Positions 27,411-48,631 of a DNA stretch of 64,000 nucleotides are shown here, in pieces. The position numbers and the translations under genes were made by a program. Every line of letters begins with the position of its first letter. Within the stretch, counting starts at the first letter, position 1. The notes beneath the pieces were generated by a model. That model was not told the origin of the DNA. It saw only the letters and a program-made list of their open reading frames with translations, and searched no databases. Source of the DNA: Methylomarinovum tepidoasis (GTDB lineage Bacteria; Pseudomonadota; Gammaproteobacteria; Methylococcales; Methylothermaceae). The stretch is from NCBI RefSeq assembly GCF_030294985.1, contig NZ_AP024718.1, positions 1,379,001-1,443,000 of the forward strand, given 5' to 3'.

Positions 27411-28234
27411 TAGCCTCTGGTGTCGAAGTCCAGCCCGCCGGGGAGATCGGCCAGGCGTTCCACCCAGGTGCGGAGACGGCCGTGGGATGACAGTTCGAGC
27501 CAACGCCAGCCGGGGGGCAGGGCGTCGACAGCGAAGTCGTCGCTGCCGGGTTTGAACTGGAAGCAGGTGGAGGGCGCACTCCACAGGGGGATGTCCCGGC
27601 AGCGGCCGCTGAATACCTGGTGGACGTGGCCGAAGACGATGCCCTTGACCTGAGGGTATCCTTCCAGCTGCCGCCAGAAGGTTTCGGCGTTCTGCAGTTG
27701 CATGGTGTCCATCCAGCGGCTGCCGACGGCGACCGGCGGGTGGTGGAGGGCGATCAACGCCGGTAGCCGGCAGCGCCCGAGACAATTCCCGAGCCAGTCC
27801 AGCTGGGAAGGGGCGAGCCGGCCGGCGTGGGAGCCGGGCAGGTGGCTGTCGAGGGCGATCAGCTGCCATGCGTCGCCCAGAATGACCTGACCGGCACAAT
27901 GATGGCGCTCTCTGCAGAGAATCTGCGCCAGCAGCCGGGGATCGTCGTGGTTGCCTGGAAGCGCCAGCCAGGGACAGGGGAGCGAGGCCAGGTAGCGGTG
28001 CAGGCGCCGATAGGGGGCGGCCAGGGGTTCCTGGACCAGATCGCCGGTGAGCAGAAGGAGGTCCGGCGGCCATTGGGGGTGGCGTTGCAGGGCTTCGAGG
28101 ACGGCTTGAAAGCGCTTTTCGGTGTCGACGCCTATCAGGGTGTCCCCCGGTTGGGGGAGAAAATGGCAGTCGGACAGTTGCAGCAGGCGCAACGGGAAAC
28201 GATCGGCCGGCAGCCGCCAGGTGGTCAGAGACAT
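27407..28234 (-). CDS. cpdA: 3',5'-cyclic-AMP phosphodiesterase CpdA
   Basis: A class III metallophosphoesterase that hydrolyses cAMP. The 275-residue protein shows the full metal set: LSDCHF, LLTGDLVQ, LPGNHDD, ALHHPPV and FGHVHQ. It matches CpdA/Icc in length and order. It begins ten bases inside the argA 3' end on the same strand, so the two are coupled. CpdA is one of several similar phosphodiesterases; cAMP specificity is by family. Confidence 0.87.
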   Translation of the reverse strand: MSLTTWRLPADRFPLRLLQLSDCHFLPQPGDTLIGVDTEKRFQAVLEALQRHPQWPPDLLLLTGDLVQEPLAAPYRRLHRYLASLPCPWLALPGNHDDPRLLAQILCRERHHCAGQVILGDAWQLIALDSHLPGSHAGRLAPSQLDWLGNCLGRCRLPALIALHHPPVAVGSRWMDTMQLQNAETFWRQLEGYPQVKGIVFGHVHQVFSGRCRDIPLWSAPSTCFQFKPGSDDFAVDALPPGWRWLELSSHGRLRTWVERLADLPGGLDFDTRGY

Positions 28235-29532
28235 TTGATCAGCACTTTGGAATTGCGCTGGGCATTGTAGCAGCGCTGGCGCTGGACCGGCAGATCGGTG
28301 AAGGCGGCCGGCCGGAAGCCGCGCTCTCGGAACCAGTGCAGGGTGCGGGTGGTGAGGACGAACAACCGTTCCAAACCCTGGCGGTGGGCCTGGGCTTCGA
28401 TGTGTTCCAGCAGCCGCCGGCCGCGGTTTTCCCCCCGGTAGTCGGGATGCAGGGCCAGGCAGGCCAGTTCCCCCATCTTCACTTCCGGGAAGGCGTGCAG
28501 GGCGGCGCAGCCGATCACCAGGCCGTCGCGTTCGATGACGCAGTAGTCGGCCAGGTCCATCTCCAGTTTCTCCCGGGAGCGTTTGACCAGGACCCCTTCC
28601 CGCTCCAGGGGTGCGATGAGCTCCAGGATGCCCGGGATGTCGTCGAGACGGGCCGGGCGCAGGGATTCGAAGGGCTGGCGGGAGATCAGGGTGCCGGCGC
28701 CGTCGCGGGTGAACAGTTCCAGCAGCAGGGCGCCATCGAGATGGCGGTCGAGCAGGTGGACGCGTTCGACGCCGCCTTCCGCGGCGGTCACGGCCGCCTC
28801 CACGTGGGGGGCGACCGGTGCCGGGAAACGCGCCTGGTTCAGGTGGGTTCTGGCCTCGCTGCTGGTCAGCTGGGCCACCGGCTCCTCATCCAGGTAGCAA
28901 GGCCGTTCCATCAGGATCAGGAATTTGTCGGCCTTGAGGGCGGTGGCGACGGCGGTGGCCACGGTCTCGGCGCGGAGGTTGAAGACCTCGCCGGTGGGGG
29001 AGTAACCGAGCGGGGGGATCAGCACCAGGCGTTCCTGGGCCAGCAGCGCCTGGATGCCGGCAGCGTCGACCCGGCGCACCTCGCCGGTGTACTGGAAGTC
29101 GATGCCGTCGATGACGCCCAGGGGTTTGGCGGTGATGAAGTTGCCGGAAATCACCGGCAGGCGCATCCCGGCCATGGGGGAGTCGGCCACCCCCAGCGAC
29201 AGCCGGGCCTCGATTTCCACCCTAACCTGGCCGGCGGCTTCCTTGACGCATTCCAGGGCGGTCGCGTCGGTGATCCGCTGTCCCCGGTGGTAGCGGCAGG
29301 CGATGCCGCGTCGCTGCAGGCGGGTTTCGATCTGGGGGCGGATGCCGGGGACCAGCACCAGGCGGATGCCGAGGCCGTGGAGCAGGGCGATATCGTGGAC
29401 CAGGCTGGCGAAGCGGGGTTCGTCGGCCACCGCCTCGCCGCCGAAATGAATCACGAAGGTCCGCCCGCGGTGCGCATGGATGTAGGGCAGGGCGCCCCGG
29501 AACCAGCGGACGAAGGCGGCAGGGTCGATCAT
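28225..29532 (-). CDS. argA: N-acetylglutamate synthase ArgA
   Basis: First step of arginine synthesis. The 435-residue protein has an N-terminal amino-acid-kinase domain (TFVIHFGGEAVAD, then LVLVPGIRPQIETRLQRRG) and a C-terminal GNAT domain (GCAALHAFPEVKMGELACLALHPDYRG continuing into the acetyl-CoA loop). This is the classic feedback-regulated ArgA fold. It lies near argF and argD in the same orientation but with ilvD and an SH3 gene between, so regulation is probably separate. Confidence 0.94.
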   Translation of the reverse strand: MIDPAAFVRWFRGALPYIHAHRGRTFVIHFGGEAVADEPRFASLVHDIALLHGLGIRLVLVPGIRPQIETRLQRRGIACRYHRGQRITDATALECVKEAAGQVRVEIEARLSLGVADSPMAGMRLPVISGNFITAKPLGVIDGIDFQYTGEVRRVDAAGIQALLAQERLVLIPPLGYSPTGEVFNLRAETVATAVATALKADKFLILMERPCYLDEEPVAQLTSSEARTHLNQARFPAPVAPHVEAAVTAAEGGVERVHLLDRHLDGALLLELFTRDGAGTLISRQPFESLRPARLDDIPGILELIAPLEREGVLVKRSREKLEMDLADYCVIERDGLVIGCAALHAFPEVKMGELACLALHPDYRGENRGRRLLEHIEAQAHRQGLERLFVLTTRTLHWFRERGFRPAAFTDLPVQRQRCYNAQRNSKVLIKCL

Positions 29533-29547: not shown

Positions 29548-29644
29548 TGGCGGGTGTGGGGTTGCCGGGACGCCGTGAACCCTTCCCTGGGGGCTCGGAC
29601 CCGGCCGTCCAGGCCGGGTACGCCCGGCAACCCCACACCCGCCA
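29548..29644 (+). repeat. Structured intergenic repeat, copy 1
   Basis: Perfect 22-bp outer arms (29548-29569 and 29623-29644, GCGGGTGTGGGGTTGCC-type) enclose two hairpins. The first is CCC-TTCCCT-GGG; the second has an 8-bp stem ACCCGGCC/GGCCGGGT with loop GTCCA. The conserved core starts GACGCCGTGAA. It lies just upstream of argA and may act on transcript ends or as a mobile REP-like unit. Other copies are at 29690, 48476 and 50252. Confidence 0.82.
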
Positions 29645-29689: not shown

Positions 29690-29791
29690 GGCCTCGGGGA
29701 ATGGTCTTGCGGGACGCCGTGAATCCATCCCTGGAGGCTCGATAACCGGCCGTCCAGGCCGGTTACGCCCTTCAGACCATTCCCCGAGGCC
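29690..29791 (+). repeat. Structured intergenic repeat, copy 2
   Basis: Outer arms of 18 perfect base pairs (29690-29707 and 29774-29791, GGCCTCGGGGAATGGTCT) bear no sequence likeness to copy 1. The core (GACGCCGTGAATCCATCCCT onward) is near-identical: hairpin TCC-ATCCCT-GGA, then a 9-bp stem TAACCGGCC/GGCCGGTTA with loop GTCCA. It lies between copy 1 and the ilvD 3' end. Confidence 0.82.
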
Positions 29792-29821: not shown

Positions 29822-31519
29822 TTAGAGCTTGTCGGCGAGATCCTTGTCGGTGACCGCGCCTTCCGAGGCGGAGCTGACCAGCGCCGCGTACTTGGCAAGG
29901 ATACCACGGGTGTAACGGGGGGCGGGTTTGCGCCAGCGGGCCAGGCGGGCCTGGATTTCCTCGTCGCTCAGGTGCAGGCGCAGCTCCCGGGTTTCGGCGT
30001 CGATGGTGAGGGTGTCGCCGTCCTCGACGATGGCCAGGGGGCCACCGACATAGGCCTCCGGGGTGATGTGGCCGACCACGAAGCCGTGGGTGCCGCCGGA
30101 GAAGCGGCCGTCGGTGATGAGGGCCACGTCCTTGCCCAGCCCCTTGCCCATCACCGCCGAGGTGGGTGACAGCATCTCGCGCATGCCGGGGCCGCCCTTG
30201 GGGCCTTCGTAGCGGATGACGATGACGTCGCCCTTCTGCACCGTGCCGTCGAGAATGCGCTGCAGGGCTTCCTCCTCGCACTCGAACACCCGGGCGCTGC
30301 CGGTAAAACGCAGACCTTCCTTGCCGCTGATCTTGGCCACCGCCCCTTCGGGAGCCAGGTTGCCCTTGAGGATGACCAGGTGGCTGTCCTTCTTGATCGG
30401 GTTGTCGAGGGGACGGATGATGTCCTGGCCTTCCGGATAGGGGGCGACGTCGGCCAGATTCTCCGCCAGGGTCCTGCCGGTGACGGTGAGGCAGTCGCCG
30501 TGCAGCAGGCCGGCGTCGAGCAGCGTTTTCATCAGCGGTTGGATGCCGCCGATCTCGATCAGGTCGGCCATGTGGTAGCGGCCGCTGGGTTTGAGGTCTG
30601 CCAGCACCGGCACCTGCTTGCCGATGCGGGTGAAGTCGTCCAGGCTCAGCGGCACGTCGCAGGCGTCCGCCATCGCCAGCAGGTGGAGGACCGCGTTGGT
30701 GGAGCCGCCCAGGGCGATGACCACGGTGATGGCGTTCTCGAAAGCCTCGCGGGTCATGATGTCGCGGGGCTTGAGATCCAGCTCCAGCAGCCTGAGCACC
30801 GCCTCGCCGGCGCGTTCGCAGTCCTGCTGCTTCTCCGGGGAAACGGCGGCCTGGGCCGAGGAGCCGGGCAGACTCATCCCCAGCGCCTCGATGGCCGAGG
30901 CCATGGTGTTGGCGGTGTACATGCCGCCGCAGGAGCCGGGGCCGGGGATGGCCTTGGATTCGATCTCGTGCAGGGCGGCATCGTCGATCTGGTCGTTGGC
31001 GCGGGCGCCGACAGCTTCGAACACCGAGACGATGTCCATTTTCCTGCCGCCGCAGCTGCCGGGCAGGATGGTGCCGCCGTAGACGAACACCGCCGGGCGG
31101 TTGAGACGCGCCATGGCGATCAGGCAGCCGGGCATGTTCTTGTCGCAGCCGCCGATGGCCACCAGGCCGTCGTAGCCCTGGCAGCCCATCACGGTTTCGA
31201 TGGAATCGGCGATCACTTCGCGGGATACCAGGGAGTACTTCATCCCCTCGGTGCCCATGGAGATGCCGTCGGAAATGGTGATGGTGTGGAACAGGATGCC
31301 CTTGCCGCCGTTCTCCTCGATGCCGCGGATGGCGTACTGGGCCAGCTGATTGATGTGCATGTTGCACGGGGTCACCATGTTCCAGGTGGAGGCGACGCCG
31401 ATCTGGGGTTTCTGGAAGTCCTCGTCCTTGAAGCCCAAGGGGTGGAGCATCGCCCGGCTGGGGGCGCGCTCGTAACCATCGACGATCTTGGAGGAGTGGG
31501 GGCGTTTCTTGTCGGTCAT
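29822..31519 (-). CDS. ilvD: Dihydroxy-acid dehydratase
   Basis: Dehydrates dihydroxy-isovalerate and -methylvalerate in branched-chain amino acid synthesis, using an Fe-S cluster. The 565-residue protein has [25 protein letters not shown] and [13 protein letters not shown], holding the three conserved Cys ligands, and the [14 protein letters not shown]-terminal block. Full length. Its 5' neighbour on the same strand is the SH3 protein gene, 28 bases away. Confidence 0.97.
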
Positions 31520-48374: not shown

Positions 48375-48475
48375 GACGAAAACCCTCGTAGTCGCTGATA
48401 TGGCTTAAGGTTATCACGAATCCTGGCAGGGAACAGGATCACGTCAGTTCAAACACGTGATGGATTGATCGAGGA

Positions 48476-48571
48476 GGCAGGTGGTCCGATTCGAAAGCCT
48501 CGCCGGCAGGGAGGCCGGCGTGGAGCCTACAGGGAGGTATTGACGGCATCTTTCGAAGCGGACCACCTGCC
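48476..48571 (-). repeat. Structured intergenic repeat, copy 3
   Basis: Outer arms of 22 bases with one mismatch (48476-48497 and 48550-48571, GGCAGGTGGTCCG-type) surround two hairpins read on the minus strand: TAC-CTCCCT-GTA and CGCCGGC-CTCCCT-GCCGGCG. Same architecture as copies 1, 2 and 4, with different arm sequence. It lies between the gltA start and the prfC promoter. Confidence 0.8.
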
Positions 48572-48631
48572 TCGAGTGCCACGAGCCCGGCGGCAGGGAA
48601 TGAAAGGCGGCGTCGCCGGTCCAACAGCCGG

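Follow-up and report, generated by a model that had tools for sequence, protein, structure and literature searches.

Short palindromic repeats in the genome of Methylomarinovum tepidoasis have arms that differ from copy to copy and yet remain complementary to each other within each copy. The arms probably arrive with a mobile element, drift thereafter and stay paired through strand-switch copying of one arm onto the other. The window, the stretch of 64,000 nucleotides analysed here, belongs to a 2.44-Mb genome labelled G000; the genome of a sister species is labelled G001, the outgroup genomes include G005, G006, G007 and G009, and L-numbers are locus labels. These repeats make the upkeep of a palindrome countable, as a conserved core, fast arms and a visible orientation would record strand-switch events site by site.

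Repeat copies in the window

Two copies lie on the plus strand between two minus-strand genes, at 28225–29532 and 29822–31519, which we take from their translations to be argA-like and ilvD-like, respectively. In copy 1, the 22-nt left arm (29548–29569), which takes in the GGG of the core, is a perfect inverted repeat of the right arm (29623–29644). Its YPAL-like core of 59 nt, GGGACGCC...ACGCCC (29567–29625), folds into an inner hairpin with a stem of 8 bp and a loop of 5 nt (29599–29619). Copy 2, at a spacing of 45 nt, has 18-nt arms (29690–29707 and 29774–29791) that are likewise 100% complementary, and core comparison placed its 60-nt core at 29711–29770, with an inner hairpin of 9-bp stem and 5-nt loop (29743–29765). 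The original prediction saw near-identical cores joined to unrelated arms in these two copies, and this was borne out: the cores are 91% identical over 32 nt and 96% over 25 nt, and the perfect arms differ in sequence. Both copies fold as an arm stem bearing two small inner hairpins, with DNA folding energies 7.2 to 8.6 s.d. below those of dinucleotide shuffles on either strand (0/200 shuffles equally stable). A third, diverged copy on the minus strand (48475–48572) has a second-subfamily core (48495–48552), ending in ...GGCTCCACGCCGGCCTCCCTGCCGGCGAGGC, between arms at about 48553–48572 and 48475–48494 that pair with each other at 19/20 positions. An Rfam scan of the window (4227 families, gathering scores) gave 0 matches.

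Arms probably belong to the element

A first search of G000 located copies at 29 places and a second, with more sequence, at 39. We measured 40 G000 copies; the diverged third window copy lies outside those 40. Under the same sliding procedure, 17.05 of 20 arm positions paired within a G000 copy compared with 10.32 between copies, and the values for 36 G001 copies were 16.83 and 10.10. Pairing within copies is well above pairing between copies, which shows that arm complementarity is not due to chance.

The claim that arms share nothing holds for copies 1 and 2 but not across the 40 copies. Pairwise identity of the left arms was 0.396, compared with 0.297 in a shifted control (reached 0/2000), and that of their outer part, from −8 to −22, was 0.399 compared with 0.344 (reached 0/2000). 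The register in the left arm is weak, with G at −14 in 36/40 copies and G at −15 in 31/40. We also found arms common to different loci, at L016 and L020 and, in two other species, at L052, L053 and L057. The two other species contain many places that match copy 2 on into its arms, and Stenotrophomonas has the same arms in most copies among the matches listed. The arms that certain copies have in common at separate loci, and the weak register across the 40, indicate that arms belong to the element.

A YPAL-like family

A core model built from the copies in G000 also matched the published 168-nt Yersinia repeat RU-2, or YPAL (E = 1.8e-9). The RU-2 sequence, given in part of PMC2759123, is 99.4% identical over 168 nt to a copy in Y. 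similis (L345). On sequence comparison, the window repeat is a YPAL/RU-2-like small mobile hairpin element: in both, a common core and two inner hairpins lie inside a large palindrome, and both are intergenic and vary in presence at orthologous sites. RU-2, however, is 168 nt long with arms common to the Yersinia copies compared, whereas here the arms differ copy by copy, and the host here appears, from matches in Methylothermaceae MAGs, to be another family of Gammaproteobacteria. Among the 40 own-genome copies, we found no conserved element ends, only the weak arm register. As these copies do not form a unit of about 168 nt with conserved arms or ends, we file the repeat as YPAL-like and not as YPAL. 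Passages of PMC2229807 give YPAL target duplications of 3–26 bp and targets that span or adjoin dyad symmetry. In the present set, direct repeats of 5 nt surround the whole unit at two unpolarised sites, AGTGG at L015 and ACTGA at L023, and no hairpin was seen at most comparable empty sites, few of which are clean.

An exact-pattern scan of named genomes found the core in at least 118 stretches, and the matches listed came from Stenotrophomonas, Yersinia, Marinobacter, Idiomarina, methanotrophs, Thioalkalivibrio and others, including one Desulfobulbaceae MAG. A copy was present in 5 of 5426 E. coli genomes, and the three that we examined adjoin the same gene; at L363–L365, the neighbour of the E. 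coli copy is a gene for an iron-containing alcohol dehydrogenase. When plasmids were searched, a Yersinia copy matched enterobacterial plasmids and a Stenotrophomonas copy matched none; the window core had no blastn match in plasmids and phages. The near-identical plasmid matches to the Yersinia copy came from several enterobacteria, many of them from waste water, and an Enterobacter plasmid copy was represented by a single record. YPAL is counted across Yersinia in part of PMC2847712 and merely listed in parts of PMC2267715 and PMC3733652. Our partial survey of the literature found no account of the core outside enterobacteria, nor of core flipping, and a text search of papers for core sequence words gave no match. 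The parts of those papers that bear on it describe the family from Yersinia and Erwinia; the present matches extend it to a far broader range of Gammaproteobacteria.

Both this family and REP/RAYT systems comprise short palindromic intergenic repeats, but G001 has 36 copies and yet no match to a Y1 transposase. This transposase (PF01797) is present in 6/10 genomes of the genus, and we rejected it as the resident mover because of its absence from G001. IS1272, according to PMC5678879, is likewise mobile DNA with inverted repeats as boundaries; it targets inverted-repeat structures and leaves no TSD, whereas the comparable empty sites here mostly lack an inverted repeat.

Arms drift and change together

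To estimate drift rates, we used the 16 orthologous pairs that are filled in G000 and G001 with the core in the same orientation. The core had changed at 50 of 1009 positions (5.0%), compared with 56 of 352 in the left arm (15.9%), 47 of 351 in the right arm (13.4%) and 128 of 951 in the flanks (13.5%). The arms therefore change at about three times the rate of the core, which is the pace of flanking DNA, and are still paired. The cores of 30 copies have diverged by 0.20 on average, so that, with arms changing faster, the arms of old copies are expected to be nearly unrecognisable.

Arm pairs were counted at 24 sites, comprising these 16 and 8 with a flipped core. Both rows of L035, where the G001 copy is chimeric, were excluded, as was L024, which has lost its left arm in G000 by deletion. 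A pairing of the L027 minus copy with G001:937960 (rank 25 of 36) was rejected because it joined two neighbouring copies, and another pairing was used for L027. The 74 changed pairs consisted of 46 compensated on both sides, 11 G–T pairs and 17 broken pairs, which indicates that the upkeep of pairing is loose. Independent change of the arms would give about 5.2 double changes, compared with the 46 observed. Compensated changes were also clustered by site (0/20000 permutations as clustered), with at least three at 4/16 same-orientation sites and 4/8 flipped sites. Broken pairs were fewer among the changed pairs of flipped sites (3/37) than among those of same-orientation sites (14/37; Fisher p = 0.005, although pairs at one site are not independent of each other). 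At L005 and L200, the outer arms have been replaced on both sides, and the core and inner arm have been retained. Ordinary stepwise compensation also happens in Pantoea, where the arms at L368, L372 and L373 appear to have changed via a G–T pair.

Cores invert between their arms

At 8 of the 26 sites filled in both genomes, the core has opposite orientations relative to the flanks (L018, L022, L025, L030, L031, L034, L202 and the second copy of L005). Identity of the flipped cores ranges from 0.88 to 1.00, with L018 100% identical, and at 6/8 sites the flipped core is the best match among the 36 G001 cores. At the exceptions, L022 (rank 2) and the second copy of L005 (rank 4), this ranking would allow for a separate insertion of an oppositely oriented element. 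At L030, the state in G000 is shared by a third species (G007, L062), which indicates that this flip took place in G001. Asymmetric inner-arm bases at L030 flipped along with the core, and the outer G-run arm is unchanged. A similar case was found in Pantoea, in which the core at L380 is flipped relative to L371 between homologous arms (identity 0.94 turned, 0.46 as is).

A further reading is that the roughly 40 cores of the genome are invertible and flip in place, as at the 8/26 differing sites, with flipping and arm rewriting being one process and orientation perhaps serving as a slow switch on flanking transcripts. As a whole, this seems unlikely.

Empty and filled sites

We compared G000 and G001 copies reciprocally, examining the G001 contig whole. 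L011 and L033 (no match), L029 and L204 (partial) and the G000 copy at 80977 were left out of the comparison, and of the 12 sites filled only in G001, 2 could not be placed in G000. At fifteen sites, a family element is present in just one of the two genomes. Seven of these have neither arm where the element is absent (L015, L023, L063, L206, L207, L210 and L212), and four have the right arm only (L009, L017, L205 and a diverged L021). The site without the core at L209 is a short hairpin containing the core end ACGCCC, and the remaining three are replaced or uninformative (L019, L203 and L213). L213 in G000 and G001:C1:2125759 are one site; the elements there belong to separate core families, and each has arms of its own.

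At the window locus, the two genes abut with no arm between them in G005, G006, G007 and G009, and lie about 1 kb apart in four other outgroups. G001 has a single mixed copy there, whose left arm is that of copy 1 and whose right arm is that of copy 2, an arrangement expected of core-by-core recombination.

At L017, the same four outgroups (G005, G006, G007 and G009) keep the start-codon context of the filled genome, which the empty genome has lost, so its single-arm state is a deletion. This deletion in G001 (in L067, at about 8.23 kb) took the start codon of a gene and fused arm DNA to it, apparently providing a new start for the gene.

Among 221 matching Pantoea plasmid records, we examined 17 loci: 11 have the element in one orientation, one has it inverted (L380), one is a remnant (L377) and four are empty without any arm. 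L377 is a deletion remnant in a full-element haplotype that has kept the outer right arm. The empty sites have no hairpin at the insertion place, and the terminator before fumA is intact in all. In the plasmid of Pantoea agglomerans CFBP13593 (L370), the element's inner hairpin carries a different hairpin repeat in its loop.

Origin and upkeep of the arms

The original prediction held that either the core inserts into existing hairpins or insertion itself duplicates one flank in inverted form, and it looked to empty sites for an intact hairpin or a single arm. The armless sites described above (7/15 between G000 and G001, 4/17 in Pantoea and four outgroups at the window locus) argue against both. 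It is quite improbable that a bare core is installed together with a fold-back copy of its flank, so that the right arm would be pre-existing target DNA and the left arm a new copy. L009, L017, L021 and L205 do have only the right arm where the core is absent, the same side each time, and L009 joins at a shared GCAG; but L017 and Pantoea L377 are deletions, the latter likewise retaining its right arm, and we withdrew single-arm sites as proof of flank copying after the L017 outgroups and L377 were compared. A single-arm 'empty' site can thus be a deletion scar and not a pre-insertion state. The whole arm–core–arm units between direct repeats at L015 and L023 and the arms common to some copies across loci also speak against flank copying, the remaining support for which comes from L009, L021 and L205, because these are unpolarised and would fit insertion with flank copying too. 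One-sided loss affected the left side in 7/7 cases (L009, L017, L021, L205, L209, L024 and Pantoea L377), which counts against deletion, as deletion does not predict a side bias. Insertion of the core into ready-made hairpins such as terminators is highly improbable. The arms of L013 are followed by a T run, L209 is a short hairpin where the core is absent, L022 and L213 are each a single site at which the G000 and G001 elements differ in arms or cores, L370 has a hairpin within a hairpin, and YPAL targets are associated with dyad symmetry (passages of PMC2229807). However, the L209 hairpin can be read as a deletion product from its core end, inspection by eye of the remaining comparable empty sites showed no ready-made hairpin, with the exception of a short stem at the replaced, uninformative L203, and the Pantoea empty sites have none at the place, with the fumA terminator unbroken.

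Selection could also keep arms paired. That the arms belong to the element and are paired only by selection for terminator function or RNA stability, through point mutation and compensation, with flips due to arm recombination, is possible but doubtful. The G–T intermediates in Pantoea and the 11 G–T pairs among the 74 changed pairs are consistent with it, but the clustering of compensated changes in a few sites is not, and the 14/37 broken pairs at same-orientation sites indicate that selection for pairing is weak there. Recombination of one 20-nt arm with the other would also flip cores, as would a site-specific invertase. Arm homogenisation and spacer inversion are the published products of template switching between inverted-repeat arms (passages of PMC8604942), and for this reason we propose template switching here; the same process is argued in part of PMC8794818 to make and keep RNA hairpins. 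It would be the best single account of arm homogenisation and core inversion together, and we infer that it is the agent, with neither a recombinase nor selection alone responsible. As in quasi-palindrome template switching, both arms are rewritten together in blocks and the spacer is inverted between them, but the yeast inversions in those passages of PMC8604942 alter 2–5 bp, compared with a conserved core of about 60 nt at 8/26 sites in two species here.

Under template switching, a YPAL-like mobile hairpin element would bring its own palindromic arms on arrival, after which the arm sequence would drift almost freely and the core would be conserved. A polymerase stalled at the hairpin may then switch strands and copy one arm onto the other, which would rewrite both arms at once, and a switch spanning the loop would leave the core inverted between the same arms. 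Microhomology deletions and core-by-core recombination would produce the single-arm and mixed-arm copies. The earlier idea that one arm is copied from the other survives in kind, in the coordinated rewriting and the inversion of cores between arms, but these changes come after insertion and are not a step of it.

Related modules

Stenotrophomonas contains composite modules of two inverted copies about 250–300 nt apart (L255, L261, L264, L295 and L317), and some orthologous sites of these modules agree in their arms and differ in their inner core stems. Near 2473.4 kb of G001:C1 and at L211, a palindromic element adjoins a family copy; it has another core and the same plan of two hairpins and long arms.
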